Shown: positions 16,416 through 24,077 of the stretch, in pieces | How positions within the stretch are numbered: the stretch's first letter is position 1 | Layout: the number at the start of each line of letters is the position of its first letter | Source: Streptomyces sp. YS415 | Lineage (GTDB): Bacteria > Actinomycetota > Actinomycetes > Streptomycetales > Streptomycetaceae | Direction of reading: 5' to 3' | Length of the DNA stretch: 64,000 nt | Assembly (NCBI RefSeq): GCF_023544665.1 | Contig: NZ_JAMJFL010000004.1 | Span: 124,001 to 188,000 of the forward strand | Translations under genes and position numbers: made by a program | Notes under the pieces: model-generated | What the model was told of the DNA's origin: nothing | Database searches by the model: none | What the model saw: only the letters and a program-made list of their open reading frames with translations

Positions 16416-17432
16416 TCACCCCTGCGAGCGCCCCAGCGTGCTTTCCCGCCGCACCAGGCGGTAGTCCGCCCACACCCGGCGCGGCTCGGGCGGCGGCCCG
16501 TCGCCGAGCCGGGCCAGCACCGACTCCACCGCCAGCCGGCCGATGGCCTCCTTGTCCGGTGACACCGAGGTGAGCGTCACCGCGCCGAACCGCCCCTCGA
16601 CCACGTCGTCGAAGCCGACGAGCGCGATGTCCTCGGGCACCCGCAGCCCGCGTTCGTGCAGGACCCGCATCGCGCCGATGGCCATCGGGTCGTTGTAGGC
16701 GAAGACCGCGTCCGGGCACCGGCCGGAGTCCAGGATGCGCGCCATGGCCGCCGCCCCGTCCGCGTGGCCCCAGCCGTCGGTGGCCGCCACCAGCGCGTCG
16801 TCGGCGGGCAGTCCGGCGGCGGAGAGTTCCTCCCGCCAGCCCCGCACGCGCAGTTGGGCCGGTTCGCTGCGACCGCGCCGCGCACCGATGAACGCCACCT
16901 CCCGCCGCCCCAGGTCCAGGAGGTGGCGCACCGCGGCGCGGGCGGCCGCCACGTTGTCGATGGCGATGTGGTCGTAGGGCAGGTCGTAGTCCCGTTCGCC
17001 GAGCAGCACCAGCGGGACGGGCTCGGACTGGTCGCGCAGGTCCTCGGCCTCCAGCTCGATGGGGCTGAGGATGAGACCGTCGATGACCCTTGCCCGGAAG
17101 CCCTGGCTGACCAGGACTTCCTGCTCGCGCCGGCCGCCGGTGTGGTCGAGCAGGACGATGTAGTCGTGGGCCGCGGCGGCGTCGATGACGGCGGCGGCGA
17201 GTTCGGCGAAGTAGGGGTTGCCGAGTTCGGGCAGGGCGAGCGCGATGATGCCCGTGCGTCCTTTGCGCAGATGCCGGGCGGTGAGGTTGGGCCGGTAGCC
17301 GAGCGCGTCGATGGACCGCTGGACGCGTTCGCGCATGGCCGGTGTGACGTGCTGGTAGTTGTTCACCACGTTGGAGACGGTCTTGATCGAGACCCCCGCG
17401 TGCGCGGCAACGTCCTTGAGGCTGACCCGCAC
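16416..17432 (-). CDS. LacI-family transcriptional regulator (first copy)
   Basis: A 338-residue regulator with GTG start at 17432, AAGGGA upstream, and the N-terminal helix-turn-helix 'LKDVAAHAGVSIKTVSNVVN'. The hinge helix lies near residues 48–60. The periplasmic-binding-like sensor domain follows ('IIALALPELGNPYFAELAAAV', 'DGLILSP', 'YNDPMAIGAMRVLHERG', 'ALVGFDDV'). It probably represses the GH43 and GH2 genes until a sugar ligand binds. It is paralogous to the LacI at 34636–35649, including the recognition helix (KTVSNV in both). A CG-centred operator candidate lies about 100 bp upstream of its start. Confidence 0.92.
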   Translation of the reverse strand: MRVSLKDVAAHAGVSIKTVSNVVNNYQHVTPAMRERVQRSIDALGYRPNLTARHLRKGRTGIIALALPELGNPYFAELAAAVIDAAAAHDYIVLLDHTGGRREQEVLVSQGFRARVIDGLILSPIELEAEDLRDQSEPVPLVLLGERDYDLPYDHIAIDNVAAARAAVRHLLDLGRREVAFIGARRGRSEPAQLRVRGWREELSAAGLPADDALVAATDGWGHADGAAAMARILDSGRCPDAVFAYNDPMAIGAMRVLHERGLRVPEDIALVGFDDVVEGRFGAVTLTSVSPDKEAIGRLAVESVLARLGDGPPPEPRRVWADYRLVRRESTLGRSQG

Positions 17433-17532
17433 GGCAATCCCTTCGCAGCGTCCCGGCCGGTGTGGCCGGTGCGGGTACGGGGTCGTCACCGTGGGCCGTG
17501 GGCCGAGTTCCCGTACGTACTTTTACAGACTT

Positions 17533-17546
17533 TTACAACGTTATAC
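17533..17546. promoter_or_regulatory. LacI-type operator candidate upstream of the first LacI gene
   Basis: TTACAACGTTATAC, centred on CG with core AACGTT, 101 bp upstream of the GTG start. It aligns with the sites at 8321, 16326, 32593 and 34529. Suggests autoregulation. Confidence 0.4.
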
Positions 17547-17607
17547 AGGCGTGTTCTCCAGGGTGACAAGGTAAAGGATCGGCGGCCGCCCGGGAACGGG
17601 CCGACGC

Positions 17608-18687
17608 CTATGGCATGCCCGGCAGCCGGACGGTGACGAGCAGGCCACCGGTGGGGCGGGCAGCGAGGTGGAGGGTGCCGTCGTGGGCGCGGACGATGCT
17701 CTGCACGATGGCGAGGCCGAGCCCGACCCCGGCGTGCTCGTCGGTGCGTGCGCGTTCCGTTCCGCGCTGGAAGGGCTCGGTGAGGGTCGGCACCAGTTCC
17801 GGGGGAATCGGATGGCCCGTGTTCTCGACCCGCAGCACGCTCGCGCCGTCCCGTGCCTCGGTGTGGACCGTCACCGTGCCGCCGGCGGGGAGGTTGTGGA
17901 CGACGGCGTTCTGGACGAGGTTCGTCGCCATCCGCAGCAGGAGTTCCGCGGAGCCGCTGGTGGGGGCCGCCGCGCCGGTGACGTCGAGTGTAATGCCGCG
18001 CTGCTCGGCGAGGGGAAGCAGGGTCTCGGCGGCCTCTTCGGCGACCAGGGAGAGGTCGACGCTCGCCCGGACGATGTTCCCGCGGTCGCTGCGGCTGAGC
18101 AGCAGAAGGGCCTCGGTGAGGTCGATCGCGCGCGTGTTGACGGCCTGGAGGCGTTCGATGACCTCACCGCGGTCCCGGGTGGGGTCCCTGCGGGCCACGT
18201 CGAGGAGTGTCTGCGAGATGGCCAGCGGGGTGCGCAGCTCGTGGGAGGCGTTCGCGGCGAACCTCCGCTGCTCGGCGACGTGCGACTCGAGCCGGTCGAG
18301 CATGGTGTCGAAGGCGTCGGCGAGTTCACGGAATTCGTCCTGCCGGCCCGCCAGGCGGATCCGGTGGGACAGTGAGCCGTTTCCGGCCAGCCGGGTCGCG
18401 GCCGTGATGTGGGTCAGCGGGGCGAGCATCCGCCCGGCGAGGATCCACCCACCGACGAGGCCGAACACGAGCAAGAAGGCCATCGCCCAGGCGGCGGCGG
18501 GGGCGAAGGTGCGCACCAGGAGATAGCGGTTGGGCGAGACTCCGAGCAGCCCCTGGGAGTTGTCGGGGACGTAACGCAGCAGGAACCACCACACCACGGC
18601 CAGCAGCAGCGCACCGGCGACGGCGAGGAACCCCGCATAGCTGAGGGTGAGTTTCAGCCGGACGCTGAGCCCTGGGCTTCTAGGCAT
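17608..18687 (-). CDS. two-component sensor histidine kinase
   Basis: A 359-residue membrane kinase. Membrane helices lie at about 12–36 and 63–85, with a short 25-residue outer loop between them. A HAMP-like region (about 82–135) follows, then the HisKA site with His149 ('AANASHELRTPLAIS') and the ATPase domain with an N-box ('MATNLVQNAVVHN') and G-boxes ('VENTGHPIPP', 'GVGLGLAIV'). The start ATG at 18687 overlaps the stop of the response-regulator gene (ATGCCTAG), so the two are translationally coupled. The very short outer loop suggests sensing within or near the membrane, as in cell-envelope stress sensors. Confidence 0.93.
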   Translation of the reverse strand: MPRSPGLSVRLKLTLSYAGFLAVAGALLLAVVWWFLLRYVPDNSQGLLGVSPNRYLLVRTFAPAAAWAMAFLLVFGLVGGWILAGRMLAPLTHITAATRLAGNGSLSHRIRLAGRQDEFRELADAFDTMLDRLESHVAEQRRFAANASHELRTPLAISQTLLDVARRDPTRDRGEVIERLQAVNTRAIDLTEALLLLSRSDRGNIVRASVDLSLVAEEAAETLLPLAEQRGITLDVTGAAAPTSGSAELLLRMATNLVQNAVVHNLPAGGTVTVHTEARDGASVLRVENTGHPIPPELVPTLTEPFQRGTERARTDEHAGVGLGLAIVQSIVRAHDGTLHLAARPTGGLLVTVRLPGMP

Positions 18688-19363
18688 CCGTACGGCCGGG
18701 GCGGTCGGTGTCGATGCGGTAGCCGACCCCCGGCACCGTGGCGATGACCCACGGCTCGCCGAGCCGTTTGCGCAGCGCGGAGACGGTGATGCGGACGGCG
18801 TTGGTGAGGGGATCGGCGTTCTCGTCCCAGGCCCGCTCCAGGAGCTCCTCGGAGCTGACGACTCCCCCTTCGGCGGCGACGAGGACTTCCAGTACCGCGA
18901 ATTGCTTGCGGGTGAGCGCGACATAGCGTCCGTCACGGAAGACCTCCCGGCGGAAGGGGTCCAGCCGCAGGCCCGCGATCTCACGGACCGGGGGCCGGGC
19001 GTAGGCGCGCCTGCGGTCGAGCGCCCTCAGCCGCAGGACGAGTTCCCTGAGCTCGAACGGCTTGGTGAGGTAGTCGTCGGCACCGAGCTCGAACCCGGAC
19101 GCCTTGTCGTCGATGCGGTAGGCGGCGGTGAGCATGAGGATCGGGATGCCGCTGCCGGAGGCGACGATGCGCCGGGCGACCTCGTCGCCGGAGGGGCCGG
19201 GGATGTCGCGGTCGAGGACCGCGAGGTCGTAGGAGTTGACGCTGAGCAGTTCCAGGGCGGAGTCACCGTCACCGGCGATGTCGGCGGCGATGGCCTCCAG
19301 CCGCAGACCGTCACGGACGGCCTCGGCGAGGTACGGCTCGTCCTCCACGATCAGTACGCGCAT
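18680..19363 (-). CDS. OmpR/PhoB-type response regulator
   Basis: A 227-residue regulator. The receiver domain has the acidic pair in 'VEDEP', phosphoacceptor Asp51 ('VLDRDIPGPSGD'), and the Lys of 'LTKPF'. The C-terminal winged helix (about 130–222) has 'LTRKQFAVLEVLVAAEGGVVS' and 'TNAVRITVSALRKRLG'. It is the first gene of the pair. Direct repeats just upstream (19384–19403) match repeats upstream of vanZ, pointing to autoregulation and to vanZ as a target. Confidence 0.93.
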   Translation of the reverse strand: MRVLIVEDEPYLAEAVRDGLRLEAIAADIAGDGDSALELLSVNSYDLAVLDRDIPGPSGDEVARRIVASGSGIPILMLTAAYRIDDKASGFELGADDYLTKPFELRELVLRLRALDRRRAYARPPVREIAGLRLDPFRREVFRDGRYVALTRKQFAVLEVLVAAEGGVVSSEELLERAWDENADPLTNAVRITVSALRKRLGEPWVIATVPGVGYRIDTDRPGRTDA

Positions 19364-19383
19364 GTCAGCAGCCTAAGCAGCGC

Positions 19384-19403
19384 GGCATATCGACGGCGTA
19401 TGC
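19384..19403. promoter_or_regulatory. 11-bp-spaced direct repeat before the response-regulator gene
   Basis: GGCATATCGAC followed directly by GGCGTATGC, so GCRTAT recurs every 11 bp, as expected for a head-to-tail OmpR-type dimer on one DNA face. It ends 21 bp upstream of the start codon. Similar units occur before vanZ at 20242–20260. Confidence 0.5.
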
Positions 19404-19490
19404 GCGGCCCCGGCCCCGCCGCGGAGGGTGGCCGGCCTCGTCCGGGAGACCGTCGTACGCCACGCTCCGGCTGGTGGCACGGCACGCGGC

Positions 19491-20195
19491 TCACCGTGCC
19501 GCCGCCGGCTCGAGGCGCGGCTGGTCCGGCGCCGTCTCGCCCGTGGTGCGCCACCAGCGGCGCGACACCAGCCCGGCCAGCGCGGCGCCGGCCGCGTTGA
19601 CGAGGACGTCGTCCACGGAGGACACCCGGTCGAGGCGCAGGAGGTACTGTGCGCTCTCCACCAGGACCGAGCAGCCCGCCCCCAGGGCCAGGATCCGCGG
19701 CACGGACGCCAGCGCCGCGAACCGCATCGGGGCGAAGAATCCGAGCGCCGCGAAGACCAGGAGATTGCCGGCGATCCCGAGCGGCCCCATCGTGACCAGG
19801 TCCCGCAGGGGCACCAGGCTCACCCGGGCGGGCGCGGTCCCGGGCTCGCCGCCCGGCATCATGGTCAGCCACACGAACGGCACGGTCCCGTGCACCATGC
19901 CCACCTCGGCCAGCGACCTCCGCCACGCCGGCACGACACCGGCGGCACGCCGACGACGCGCCAGGACCCACGCCACCAGCACGGCCAGGGGCACGGTGAC
20001 CAGCGTCATGAGCACCACACCGTTGAACGTGTCGTAGCAGCCGTGCCACCGCCTGGCCATGCAGGTCGGGGCGGCCATCATGAGCGGCCGCCGCAGGAGG
20101 AACAGGACGCTCGCCGCGCCGAGCACGGCCAGGCAGGCGAGCACGATCCCGCGCGTGCGTCGGGCGGGAGTGGTCACGGATGCGGTGGAGTCCAT
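19491..20195 (-). CDS. VanZ-like membrane protein
   Basis: A 234-residue protein with about five predicted membrane helices. It has the VanZ-family signatures 'VSLVPLRDLV' and 'GIAGNLLVFAALGFFAPM', plus the acidic/basic 'SAQYLLRLDRVSSVDDVLVN' segment near the last helices. VanZ of Enterococcus gives low-level teicoplanin resistance; actinobacterial relatives mostly lack a defined role in the envelope. It follows the two-component genes' promoter region on the same strand, and its own upstream region has the same 11-bp repeats as the response-regulator gene. Confidence 0.88.
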   Translation of the reverse strand: MDSTASVTTPARRTRGIVLACLAVLGAASVLFLLRRPLMMAAPTCMARRWHGCYDTFNGVVLMTLVTVPLAVLVAWVLARRRRAAGVVPAWRRSLAEVGMVHGTVPFVWLTMMPGGEPGTAPARVSLVPLRDLVTMGPLGIAGNLLVFAALGFFAPMRFAALASVPRILALGAGCSVLVESAQYLLRLDRVSSVDDVLVNAAGAALAGLVSRRWWRTTGETAPDQPRLEPAAAR

Positions 20196-20241
20196 GCCCC
20201 CATTGGAGAGGGCGGGCGGTTGCGGTGGCGTATGTGCTTTT

Positions 20242-20260
20242 CGATACGCCCGCGATACGC
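20242..20260. promoter_or_regulatory. 11-bp-spaced direct repeat before vanZ
   Basis: On the minus strand GCGTATCG occurs twice with starts 11 bp apart, 47–65 bp upstream of the vanZ start. A further GCGTATG lies on the plus strand at 20228–20234. It matches the repeats before the neighbouring response-regulator gene. Confidence 0.5.
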
Positions 20261-20276
20261 AGCTCCCCCGGCGCCG

Positions 20277-20819
20277 TCAGCCCTGCGTACCCGGCTTCCA
20301 GTCCTCGGCGAGCAGACCGAGCAGCACCCCGTCGAGGAACTCACCCATCACCCAGGCCGAGGAGCGCAGCACGCCCTCGCGGACGAAGCCGTTGCGTTCG
20401 GCGGCGCGCAGCATCGGGGTGTTGTCCGACAGCGTCTCGATCTGCAGCCGGTGCAGGCCGCGCACGACGAAGCCGTAGTGGCACAGCACCGCGACCACAT
20501 CGGTGCCGTAACCCCTGCCGCGGCAGGAGGGCAGCAGCCCCAGCCCTATGTGCGCCGACCGGTTGTGGGTGTCGATGCCCCAGAGCGCCGCGATGCCGGC
20601 CAGGGTGCCGCCCTCCAGCTCCACCACGGAGAAGGGGACGCGCCCCTGTTCCTTGTCGTCCACCACGAGCCGCGGGTCCTTCGAGCCGGGCGAGACCGGC
20701 CGCCACGGCTTGGGGTCGGCCCGCGCGGAGTTGGCCACGTCGTCGAAGAGCTCGGTCCGCAGGACCGGGATGTCGTCCTCGTGCCGGGCCCTGAGCCCGA
20801 CTTGTCCACCCGTCAGCAT
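20277..20819 (-). CDS. GNAT-family N-acetyltransferase (RimJ/RimL-like)
   Basis: A 180-residue acetyltransferase. The acetyl-CoA-binding motif A is 'IGLGLLPSCRGRGYGTDVVAV' (the R/Q-x-x-G-x-G/A loop as CRGRGYG), preceded by 'GIAALWGIDTHNRSAHIGLG'. Then come 'HRLQIETLSDNTPMLRAAERNGFVREG' and a C-terminal 'LLAEDW', typical of the RimJ/RimL branch that acetylates protein N-termini or small amines. Substrate unknown. GGAAG precedes ATG 20819. Confidence 0.9.
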   Translation of the reverse strand: MLTGGQVGLRARHEDDIPVLRTELFDDVANSARADPKPWRPVSPGSKDPRLVVDDKEQGRVPFSVVELEGGTLAGIAALWGIDTHNRSAHIGLGLLPSCRGRGYGTDVVAVLCHYGFVVRGLHRLQIETLSDNTPMLRAAERNGFVREGVLRSSAWVMGEFLDGVLLGLLAEDWKPGTQG

Positions 20820-20952
20820 GTGGGCTTCCTATCCGACCCACTCATCCCGCGGCAACCGATTAGCGACCCCGCTCCGTCCGGATGCCGACCCCGGCTGGGC
20901 GGCATCCGGACGGCCCAACCGGGTTGCTGCGAAAGGGCCGTTGACTCTCTTT

Positions 20953-21035
20953 ACGGCGCCTTCATGCGGCGGTAACTTCCAGCCTCGAAATCGCTTGCAG
21001 CAACTTTCCGGCAGTCCTTGCGACGGCGCCTTCGG
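20953..21035 (+). promoter_or_regulatory. repeat-containing promoter region of the amylase gene
   Basis: ACGGCGCCTTC occurs twice, near 20953 and 21023. Between them lie CTTGCAG (20994–21000) and CCTTGCG (about 21017), pyrimidine-rich direct repeats like those in Streptomyces amylase promoters controlled by the LacI-type MalR/Reg1 repressor. The assignment is inference; no malR gene is in the window. Confidence 0.35.
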
Positions 21036-21089
21036 CACCCCACACCTTGCCCTGCCCGCCCTGGCGCGGTCCGCCTTCGAGGGAGTCCC

Positions 21090-24077
21090 ATGGAACGAAG
21101 TCCCGCCCGGCGGCTGAGACTGCCGCTGACGGCGTTGTTGATATCGGGCACACTGCTCAGCCTGGTGCAGGCCGTGCCCCGGACCGGCACTCCGTCCGCG
21201 GAACCGGTCGCGGAAGCTGTCCCGGCAGCGGCCGGCACGGCGACGGTCTTCTACTACACGAAGACCAGGAACTGGTCCCAGTACCGCCTGCACTACGCCC
21301 CGGACGGCGGCGCCTGGACGACGGTCCCGGGCGTGGCCATGGAGGCGGCCTGCACGGACTGGGTCAAGAAGACGGTGGACCTGGGCTCCGCGGCCGGTCT
21401 GCAGGCCACCTTCACCAACGGCAGCGGCACCTGGGACAACAACGGTGGCGCCAACTACGCGCTGGGCACCGGGAACATCACCGTCAAGGACGGGGTCGTC
21501 GCCCATTCCGACCCCTGCGGCGGCACGGAGCCCCCGTCCGACCACACCGCCACCGTCTACTACTCGACCGAGGCCCTGGGCTGGTCCACGGCGAACATCC
21601 ACTACCAGCCCGCGGGCGGAACCTGGACCACCGTCCCCGGCATCGGCATGCGGGCCGCCTGCACCGGGTGGTGGAAGCAGACTCTCGCCCTGGGCTCCGC
21701 CACGTCCTTGAAGGCCGCCTTCAACAACGGCAACGGCACCTGGGACAACAACAACGGCGCCGACTACACCATCCCGGCCGGCACCAGCACGGTGAAGAAC
21801 CGCGCCGTCGTCAAGGACGCCGCCGACCCGTGCGCCACGCAGCCGCCCGACACCGAGGCACCCACCGCGCCCACCGGCGTGAGCGCGAGCGCGGACGGCG
21901 TCTCCGTCGTCCTGACCTGGGAGCCCTCGACCGACAACAAGGGCGTTGCCAAGTACCAGGTCACCCGGACGGGCGGAGGCACCGGCACGACCGTCACGGA
22001 CGTGACCTCCACCGTCCTCACCGACACAGGGCTGGAGGAGAGGACCGGCTACACCTACACCGTCAAAGCCGTGGACGCGGCCGGCAACGTCTCCGCCGCC
22101 TCCGCCTCCGCACGGGTCACCACCGGCGAGAAGCCCGCGGGACCGGCGCCCGGCACGCCGCTCGGCACCGACCCGCGCAAGGACCCCATCTACTTCGTCC
22201 TCACGGCCCGCTTCAACGACGGCGACAGCGCCAACAACCGCGGCGGCAGCCAGCACGTGAAGTCGGGCAACGCCGCCAACCAGGACCCCATGTTCCGCGG
22301 CGACTTCAAGGGCCTGGTCCAGAAACTGGACTACATCAAGGCGCTCGGCTTCTCCGCGGTCTGGATCACCCCGGTCGTACTCAATCGCTCCGACTACGAC
22401 TACCACGGCTACCACGGCTACGACTTCTACAAGGTCGACCGCCGACTGGAATCCGCCGGAGCCTCCTATCAGGACCTGATCAACGCGGCCCATGCCAAGG
22501 GCATGAAGATCTACCAGGACGTCGTCTACAACCACTCCTCCCGCTGGGGAGCCAAGGGACTCTTCACGCCGACCGTCTACGGCGTGCGTGACACGCAGTG
22601 GAGCTGGTACTACGACGAGCGCAACGACGGCTTCGAGTACGACGGCCTGACCGTCGAGACCAAGAGCGGCAAGTCCTTCTACAACGGCGACCTGTGGTCG
22701 ACCGCTGAGCCGTCCGGCAACACCTGCGTCAACTGGGGCAGGCCGACCGGCGGCAAGAGCCCCGAGGGCTACACCCTCTACAACTGCCAGTGGCCCAGCC
22801 CCACGTCCGGCATGTTCCCCCAGGCGCTCTACCACCAGTGCTGGATCGGCAACTGGGAGGGAGAGGACTCCCGTTCGTGCTGGCTGCACGAGGACCTCGC
22901 CGACTTCAACACCGAGAACGCGGCCGTGCAGAACTACCTGATCGGCGCCTACGACAAGTACATCGACATGGGCGTCGACGGCTTCCGCGTCGACACCGCC
23001 GTCCACATCCCTCGCACCACCTGGAACCGCCGCTTCCTGCCCGCCATCCAGGAGCGCGTCACCCAGCGATTCGGAGCCGAGGCCGCCCGGAACTTCTTCG
23101 TCTTCGGCGAGGTCGCCGCCTTCGTCAACGACAAGTGGAACCGGGGCTCGGTCAACCACTCCGCGCAGTTCTACACCTGGAAGGAACGCAAGGAGTACGC
23201 CGCCGACGACGCCAAGGCCGCGCTGGAAATGTACGACCACGAACAGCAGTTGGGCACCGGCAGCCAGCCCACCTCCACCAACGCCTTCCTCCAGGGCAAC
23301 AGCTACCACACCCCGGACCACTCGAAGTTCTCCGGCATGCATGTCATCGACATGCGGATGCACATGAACTTCGGCGACGCGCACAACGCCTTCTCCAACG
23401 GCAAGGACTCCGACGACAGTTACAACGACGCCACGTACAACGTCGTCTACGTCGACAGCCATGACTACGGCCCCAACAAGTCCAGCGAGCGCTACACCGG
23501 CGGCACGGACGCCTGGGCCGAGAACATGTCCCTGATGTGGACCTTCCGCGGCATCCCCACCCTGTATTACGGGTCCGAGGTCGAGTTCCAGGCCGGCAAG
23601 AAGATCGACTGCGGCCCCAGTTGCCCCCTCGCCACCACCGGCCGCGCCTACTTCGGCGACCACATCGCGGGCGAGATCAAGGCCGGCGACTTCTCGAAGG
23701 TGGAGTCCGCCACCGGCGCCGTCGCCGCGACCCTGGACAAACCCCTGGTCAAGCATGTGCAGCGGCTCAACCAGATCCGCCGGGCGATCCCCGCCCTCCA
23801 GACGGGCCAGTACTCCACCGAGGGCATCTCGGGCGGCATGGCCTTCAAGCGCCGCTGGACCAGCGGCGCCACGGACAGCTTCGTCCTGGTCACCGTCACC
23901 GGCGGAGCCACCTTCACCGGCATCCCCAACGGCCGCTACGTGGATGCCGTCACCGGCGACGTCCGCCAGGTCACCGCCGGCACCCTCACCGTCGCCGCGC
24001 CCGGCAAGGGCAACCTGCGCGCCTACGTCCTCAACGGACCCGGGCAGATCGGCACCGCCGGCCCTTACCTGAAGTAA
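21090..24077 (+). CDS. secreted alpha-amylase (GH13) with two starch-binding modules
   Basis: A 995-residue secreted enzyme that cleaves internal alpha-1,4 bonds of starch. Order: signal peptide (about 1–45), two CBM25-like starch-binding modules (about 48–145 and 150–245, each with 'YY', a central 'GTWDNNNGADYT'-type loop and tandem Trp), a fibronectin-III domain (about 255–345), and the GH13 barrel with its C-terminal domain (about 360–995). Predicted catalytic residues are Asp635 ('GFRVDTAVH'), Glu674 ('FGEVAAF') and Asp792 ('DSHDYG'). ATG 21090 follows GAGGGAG. The region before it carries amylase-type promoter repeats. A 14-bp-stem terminator follows. Confidence 0.94.
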   Translation: MERSPARRLRLPLTALLISGTLLSLVQAVPRTGTPSAEPVAEAVPAAAGTATVFYYTKTRNWSQYRLHYAPDGGAWTTVPGVAMEAACTDWVKKTVDLGSAAGLQATFTNGSGTWDNNGGANYALGTGNITVKDGVVAHSDPCGGTEPPSDHTATVYYSTEALGWSTANIHYQPAGGTWTTVPGIGMRAACTGWWKQTLALGSATSLKAAFNNGNGTWDNNNGADYTIPAGTSTVKNRAVVKDAADPCATQPPDTEAPTAPTGVSASADGVSVVLTWEPSTDNKGVAKYQVTRTGGGTGTTVTDVTSTVLTDTGLEERTGYTYTVKAVDAAGNVSAASASARVTTGEKPAGPAPGTPLGTDPRKDPIYFVLTARFNDGDSANNRGGSQHVKSGNAANQDPMFRGDFKGLVQKLDYIKALGFSAVWITPVVLNRSDYDYHGYHGYDFYKVDRRLESAGASYQDLINAAHAKGMKIYQDVVYNHSSRWGAKGLFTPTVYGVRDTQWSWYYDERNDGFEYDGLTVETKSGKSFYNGDLWSTAEPSGNTCVNWGRPTGGKSPEGYTLYNCQWPSPTSGMFPQALYHQCWIGNWEGEDSRSCWLHEDLADFNTENAAVQNYLIGAYDKYIDMGVDGFRVDTAVHIPRTTWNRRFLPAIQERVTQRFGAEAARNFFVFGEVAAFVNDKWNRGSVNHSAQFYTWKERKEYAADDAKAALEMYDHEQQLGTGSQPTSTNAFLQGNSYHTPDHSKFSGMHVIDMRMHMNFGDAHNAFSNGKDSDDSYNDATYNVVYVDSHDYGPNKSSERYTGGTDAWAENMSLMWTFRGIPTLYYGSEVEFQAGKKIDCGPSCPLATTGRAYFGDHIAGEIKAGDFSKVESATGAVAATLDKPLVKHVQRLNQIRRAIPALQTGQYSTEGISGGMAFKRRWTSGATDSFVLVTVTGGATFTGIPNGRYVDAVTGDVRQVTAGTLTVAAPGKGNLRAYVLNGPGQIGTAGPYLK

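Follow-up and report, generated by a model that had tools for sequence, protein, structure and literature searches.

A predicted 41-bp van-regulon operator upstream of vanZ suggests control by a VanRS-type two-component system

The window analysed here, a stretch of 64,000 nucleotides from a soil bacterium, carries on its minus strand three consecutive genes in the order vanZ–vanR–vanS (Table 1), the ATG of vanS overlapping the stop codon of vanR. The vanS-like product is a membrane kinase with a HAMP domain, a phospho-acceptor histidine (His149) and a short extracytoplasmic loop, RYVPDNSQGLLGVSPNRYLLVRTFAP, delimited by membrane segments assigned by eye. The vanR product belongs to the OmpR family and is a close relative of VanR; its predicted phospho-acceptor is Asp51, as counted in the translation. 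VanR of S. coelicolor (7LZ9/7LZA) was the sole PDB sequence that matched this regulator at E <= 1e-40 (422 bits over 220 residues), and TNAVRITVSALRKRL in the DNA-binding domain is identical in the regulator and 7LZ9. In these features both proteins agree with a VanRS pair of the S. coelicolor type. Their top NCBIfam matches were VanR-O for the regulator (446 bits) and VanS-O for the kinase (422 bits), models NF033118 and NF033094, which represent the vanO operon of Rhodococcus, yet neither score reaches its curated cut-off (505 and 720 bits, respectively), and we therefore do not name the pair as VanO members.

The vanZ product matched Pfam VanZ (PF04892) with 57.4 bits against a gathering cut-off of 30.1. 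The ExxQ motif is present in all 98 VanZ homologues compared and [SD]VDDxxxN in 97 of them; in the VanZ of the window, S replaces the first D of the DxDDxxxN-type motif, which passages of PMC12419801 give together with ExxQ for the lipocone VanZ-1 family, and the protein conforms to that motif pattern. Its NCBIfam VanZ-F score of 19.5 bits, against a cut-off of 375, places it outside VanZ-F. The genome of the window encodes a single close VanR (448 bits, the next match reaching 273), and in it no PF01427 (VanX-family) match was found at E <= 0.001 and no VanH match at E <= 1e-70, so that this search, which covered these two families, did not recover the vanH plus vanX combination of a vanHAX-type (D-Ala-D-Lac) resistance cluster. 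The GNAT gene upstream (20277-20819) was considered as a member of the unit and rejected, as it was found only in the window's own locus out of 111 (tblastn, E <= 1e-15; about 30 of the 111 loci had only 1.5 kb of flank). The region is further flanked by a LacI-type regulator gene (16416-17489, minus strand) and a large secreted amylase-like gene (21018-24077, plus strand), both of which look unrelated to the van unit by eye.

Table 1. Positions of the genes and predicted promoter features of the window, and of second element copies in other vanZ loci (position given within each locus).
Feature	Position	Strand	Description
vanS-like sensor kinase gene	17608..18687	-	359 aa; Pfam HAMP, HisKA, HATPase_c; NCBIfam VanS-O top match
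vanR-like OmpR-family response regulator gene	18680..19363	-	227 aa; Pfam Response_reg and Trans_reg_C
-10 hexamer of vanR	19370..19375	-	TAGGCT, 6 nt before vanR ATG (predicted leaderless)
Predicted vanR operator	19386..19403	-	One half-site pair, GCATACG-N4-CGATATG; ends 22 nt before ATG
vanZ	19491..20195	-	234 aa; ExxQ and SVDDxxxN motifs; Pfam VanZ
-10-like hexamer of vanZ	20202..20207	-	TCCAAT, same register to ATG as that of vanR
Predicted vanZ operator	20218..20258	-	41 bp, four half-sites; ends 22 nt before ATG
vanZ half-site	20258-20253	-	GTATCG
vanZ half-site	20247-20242	-	GTATCG
vanZ half-site	20234-20229	-	CATACG
vanZ half-site	20223-20218	-	GCAACC
Second copy, L065	2618	+	
Second copy, L070	2623	+	
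Second copy, L078	3007	+	
Second copy, L084	2526	+	
Second copy, L090	2503	+	
Second copy, L099	2488	+	

A first-pass annotation of the sequence had proposed probable control of vanZ by the two-component system, exerted through repeats with a spacing of 11 bp, one pair before vanR and one before vanZ. Both pairs lie where it had placed them, to one base, with 11-bp periodicity: GCATATCG-ACG-GCGTATGC at 19385-19403 (plus strand) on the vanR side and GCGTATCG-CGG-GCGTATCG at 20260-20242 (minus strand) on the vanZ side. The pairs exist but are not equivalents, the vanZ pair being the distal half of a larger element, whose promoter-proximal half, CATACG-N5-GCAACC at 20234-20218, had been missed. 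When each pair is viewed in relation to its own gene, that of vanR and the flagged one of vanZ lie on opposite strands, the latter facing away from vanZ; the vanR pair corresponds to the proximal vanZ pair, the two sharing one register to their respective ATGs. If the repeats were a byproduct of chance or base composition, the vanR pair alone would raise no objection, since shuffling predicts 0.99 occurrences of the pattern GCGTATCGNNNGCGTATCG per window when at most 3 mismatches are allowed, and the vanR copy, with its 3 mismatches, is not significant by itself. For the vanZ copy, which matches exactly and has 16 fixed letters, a chance origin is unlikely by our own estimate.

The comparison across loci decides this question. 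We collected 110 vanZ loci, 30 from genomes of the window's genus (its own included) and 80 from contigs, with some overlap, and removed 11 of them as duplicates by an identical internal vanZ stretch. The conserved element, GTATCG-N5-GTATCG-N7-CATACG-N5-GCAACG, stands 22 nt before vanZ and scores 19–24 of the 24 half-site letters in 93 of the 99 remaining loci, as against a maximum of 17 in a Markov null of 3000 shuffled windows. In an initial null, built from stretches drawn at random from these loci, 15 of 2331 scores were 17 or higher and the maximum was 24; it was replaced by the Markov null because several loci hold second real copies of the element. Half-site columns have a mean information content of 1.73 bits versus 0.23 in the upstream flank (n = 90), and the reversed pattern, scanned as a control, had no match in 150 genomes. 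Conservation of this kind refutes a chance origin of the repeats, the probability of which we regard as practically negligible. In the 8.0-Mb genome of the window the full operator has exactly one match with at most 3 mismatches, at vanZ.

In 71 of the 93 loci, exactly 22 nt separate the element from the first ATG or GTG in frame with vanZ; this distance is 21, 23 or 25 nt in 6 loci and 7-19 nt in 15, and in one locus no such codon was found in frame. In the 15 loci with the shorter distance, another start codon was seen by eye at 22 or 23 nt. Six loci do not reach 19 letters before vanZ (L058, L065, L070, L095, L105, L108). Two of these, L065 and L070, carry it before a PF00144 gene that ends just before vanZ, from which vanZ may be read, and the genome of L105 has no close VanR (best 57%). 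L095, where vanZ stands beside vanR, L058 and L108 are real exceptions without a good operator score at vanZ, the last two having no adjacent regulator although VanR is encoded in the genome.

On the vanR side, 57 of 81 non-redundant loci have the pair, with no more than 4 mismatches in its 14 letters, at a distance of 21-22 nt from the vanR ATG, compared with 57 of 18,200 shuffles, and the other 24 lack it; L106, L107 and L110 were left out of this count and of the loop and column counts. The repeats of both promoters are kept in orthologous loci, the comparison to which the first-pass annotation had tied its proposal, and this conservation supports two-component control of vanZ through 11-bp-spaced repeats as a prediction from sequence. 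Besides, TAxxxT occurs 5-7 nt before the vanR ATG in 80 of the 81 loci. At vanZ, the first and last T of the -10-like hexamer hold 1.85 and 1.91 bits, the highest values downstream of the operator, and the second position is without the usual A. The constant distance from operator to ATG at both promoters suggests leaderless transcripts, a part of the model that is not favoured by the under-representation of leaderless transcripts among glycopeptide-induced S. coelicolor genes stated in passages of PMC7947799. A sigma-70 consensus scan of 17500-21000 gave no promoter-like site, this consensus not being informative for a GC-rich genome, and the sole terminator-like site of the same scan does not lie between vanZ and vanR. 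As a side observation, the conserved ...CAATGGGGGCATGA of many vanZ promoters (20195-20207, minus strand, in the window) holds an upstream ATG, seen by eye, which is out of frame and runs into a stop overlapping the vanZ start.

The same element is found at other van genes. We fetched 20 further VanR loci, 19 with lower identity to the VanR of the window plus L134, which encodes a vanZ-type VanR without vanZ and had no element in the fetched locus. In 18 of the 19, the element stands in reverse before vanR itself, being degenerate in L125, and the next van gene on its other side is VanJ-like in 9, VanY-like in 4, VanK-like in 2 and without an assignment in 3. A start codon lies 22-23 nt from that other side in 16 of the 18 loci, several of the frames opened there being short. 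The element also precedes vanH in 13 of 13 newly fetched and 4 of 4 other loci, that is, in all 17 vanH genomes among 150, at 22–23 nt from the ATG, a distance read by eye in the newly fetched loci because the automated search for start codons took an earlier TTG as well. Additional copies stand before VanK-, VanY-, VanH- and MurF-like genes, according to Pfam matches of representatives. A promoter element common to the window and to van genes of its relatives is a further feature of the S. coelicolor type of VanRS, and passages of PMC7947799 report that vancomycin induces vanRSJKHAX in that species. We consider the 41-bp element to be a predicted van-regulon operator.

Some copies lie before genes of the beta-lactamase family. 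Six vanZ loci (Table 1) have a second copy 1.0-1.5 kb upstream of vanZ, all preceding a PF00144 homologue, which in L078 is divided between two matches. Operator copies away from vanZ are likewise followed by a PF00144-family gene in four genomes of the window's genus (L178, L179, L182, L185); the frame that begins at the standard distance in L178 and L179 does not continue into the PF00144 gene, and in L182 and L185 no start codon was found at that distance, so these copies may be damaged or the genes may start elsewhere. From these positions we predict that the PF00144 gene is likely a further VanR target. Operator copies in L183, L186 and L187 (genomes G105, G002 and G149) were seen to precede MurF-, VanY- and VanK-like genes. 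Those of G105 and G149 are far from the VanR locus, which, as far as position can tell, suggests targets in trans.

A different regulator could in principle bind the repeats and merely happen to serve van genes, and the distribution of the element over genomes bears on this directly. In 150 genomes of the window's genus, its own included (element with at most 2 mismatches; VanR at E <= 1e-85), the element occurs in 79, of which 75 encode VanR (Fisher P = 4e-30). It is thus present in 75 of 81 VanR-positive genomes, six being without it, as against 4 of 69 VanR-negative ones; together with its occurrence ahead of vanR in 18 of the 19 other VanR loci, this makes a foreign regulator extremely unlikely. 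Among the four genomes with the element and no VanR (G050, G052, G078, G125), G050 is 82% complete and G078 has vanZ fragments only; near the operators of G052 and G125 (L180, L181) no van gene was recognised at E <= 1e-6. The idea that these two operators stand beside vanZ remnants was dropped, no VanZ match being found there at E <= 1e-6.

VanR is encoded in 38 of the 39 vanZ genomes, and a regulator is adjacent to vanZ in 94 of the 110 vanZ loci, downstream of it in 91 of these (L067 lies near a contig end and its neighbourhood is unsure). For 14 vanZ genes without an adjacent regulator, a VanR of at least 84% identity is encoded elsewhere in 12 genomes, the copy in the genome of L082 having an internal stop, and 10 of those 12 regulator-less vanZ genes keep the operator at 19 letters or more, L036 being counted through its duplicate L006. 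Only one genome has vanZ and vanH together; mutual exclusion of the two is only suggestive over all 150 genomes (P = 0.07), and within VanR-positive genomes it reaches P = 2e-4.

The short outer loop of the kinase had led the first-pass annotation to compare it with envelope-stress sensors and to leave open a glycopeptide- or envelope-stress module. The loop is indeed short, but it is that of a VanS-type sensor and alone gives no sign of a generic envelope-stress kinase. A general envelope-stress system of the CseBC or BaeRS kind, with vanZ as one of its stress genes, would account for the short loop, for the weaker similarity of the regulator to CseB (121.6 bits) and BaeR (104.5 bits) and for that of the kinase to models of BaeS (145 and 119 bits). 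The VanR-O and VanS-O scores, however, are far above those of all other models listed, VanR is the only close PDB relative, and the operator is common to vanH-, vanJ- and vanK-like genes. Moreover, the VanRS of S. coelicolor does not respond to moenomycin, bacitracin or ramoplanin, according to a passage of PMC6767563. We rejected a CseBC- or BaeRS-type identity on the model scores and the sharing of the operator, and a general stress system appears very improbable. Of the two alternatives left open by the annotation, glycopeptide is better supported than general envelope stress because the regulator is of the same kind as S. coelicolor VanR.

VanR might control vanZ with another lipid II binder or the state of the cell wall, in place of a classical glycopeptide, as the inducer. 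In this direction point a GLLGxxPNRYLL loop, present in 54 of 82 distinct vanZ-adjacent VanS, that of the window included (55 by eye with L085), and in none of the 19 VanS from the other fetched VanR loci, and the separation of vanZ-adjacent VanS from the others by one branch with support of 100/100 (74 rows). For VanR the corresponding branch has 99/91 (103 rows); the trees were drawn with a midpoint root and their bootstraps had not settled. L096 was left out of the loop count, and L134 out of the loop comparison and the trees. On the other hand, a GVFPxRSxLL loop occurs in 13 of the 82 vanZ-adjacent and 5 of the 19 other VanS, and since it is common to both groups, vanZ output is not tied to one loop; loops also vary widely even among the other VanS. 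We hold a non-classical inducer to be rather unlikely on this balance.

Considering these results, we propose that glycopeptides are sensed by a VanRS system like that of S. coelicolor, which turns on vanZ, as well as its own genes, through the operator, a reading to which, on sequence evidence, we give a probability of roughly 85%. VanS would bind glycopeptide, the presumed signal, on lipid II, probably through its short outer loop, and once activated would phosphorylate VanR at Asp51. Two VanR~P dimers, whose DNA binding and orientation we infer, would then sit in opposite orientation on the 41-bp element before vanZ, with the proximal one straddling the -35 region of a putative leaderless promoter whose start would coincide with the vanZ ATG. 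At vanR, the single dimer site with the same promoter geometry would mediate autoactivation of vanR-vanS. VanZ would thus be switched on without D-Ala-D-Lac remodelling and, without vanHAX, may protect against teicoplanin-like, membrane-associating glycopeptides at lipid-linked precursors; passages of PMC12419801 propose that the lipocone VanZ-1 family acts on lipid II head groups. The distal pair is kept in vanZ loci while the window has no divergent gene there, which argues, at the level of sequence, that this pair helps vanZ.

Published reporter data bear on the function of the operator parts. According to passages of PMC9779433, an S. coelicolor vanH reporter was about 20-fold inducible and a vanJ reporter about 40-fold in liquid, and on plates the vanH reporter was much less responsive than the vanJ reporter. 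The reverse primer given there for vanHp has an exact match in a relative of the window (G118, L176:2709-2749, minus strand), inside the predicted operator; the other three primers had no exact match in 8 kb of G118. As judged from this match, the cloned vanH fragment apparently stops within the fourth half-site and does not include the predicted -10, and this lack may be the reason for the weaker response of the vanH reporter, which in that case fits the model. Since the seemingly shortened reporter is still about 20-fold inducible, however, induction may not depend strictly on the predicted -10 or on the fourth half-site.

A wider reading, which we put forward tentatively and consider possible rather than probable, joins these observations. 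The vanZ-adjacent VanRS would form a separate lineage with its own loop class and would answer a membrane-associating lipid II binder, teicoplanin-like and not vancomycin. VanZ would be its sole full-operator output and would protect through lipid-linked precursors without a D-Ala-D-Lac switch, and the 41-bp two-dimer operator would have moved between vanZ, vanJ, vanK, vanH, vanY, murF and beta-lactamase-family genes, so that outputs were swapped behind a fixed VanR switch.

A VanRS-vanZ wiring would make it easier to test how VanZ acts in teicoplanin resistance; a natural VanRS-vanZ system in a genome without a VanX-family or VanH match would allow the role of VanZ to be measured by itself. 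Besides, the operator is of practical use for deriving VanR regulons from sequence, given the absence of reversed-control matches in 150 genomes, and the pattern has already pointed to vanK-, murF- and beta-lactamase-family genes as candidate targets away from the VanR locus.

Among the closest known systems is VanRS of S. coelicolor with its vanSRJKHAX cluster (SCO3589-SCO3596), with which the locus shares a VanR highly similar over 220 residues, an OmpR-type regulator with a short-loop kinase and an operator that in the relative G118 faces VanJ-, VanK- and VanH-like genes. It differs in that the regulated neighbour is vanZ in a genome without a VanX-family or VanH match, in that the vanR promoter has one predicted dimer site and not a full divergent operator, and in that the VanS loop belongs to another class than those of the 19 other VanR loci. 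A literature search found no published description of the VanR operator, part of which the original S. coelicolor papers may contain, and term look-ups in the searchable text of PMC8698665, PMC9779433, PMC6001138 and PMC8329863 returned none either. The tie between VanZ and teicoplanin resistance in enterococci is said to go back to the work of Arthur et al. in 1995 on Tn1546. With that enterococcal VanZ and with lipocone VanZ-1, the protein of the window has in common the Pfam VanZ domain, the ExxQ motif and a [SD]VDDxxxN motif that resembles DxDDxxxN; it differs in scoring below the VanZ-F cut-off, in having no link to vanHAX and in carrying S where the motif begins with D. The partnership of vanRS with vanZ is itself already published for Actinobacteria in PMC8698665, in whose accessible part the VanS encoded beside vanZ form one cluster (VS5), just as they fall on one side of a branch here. 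Our analysis shares this gene partnership with that study and adds to it a predicted regulatory link and its breadth across loci, the words "promoter" and "operator" being absent from the searchable main text of PMC8698665.
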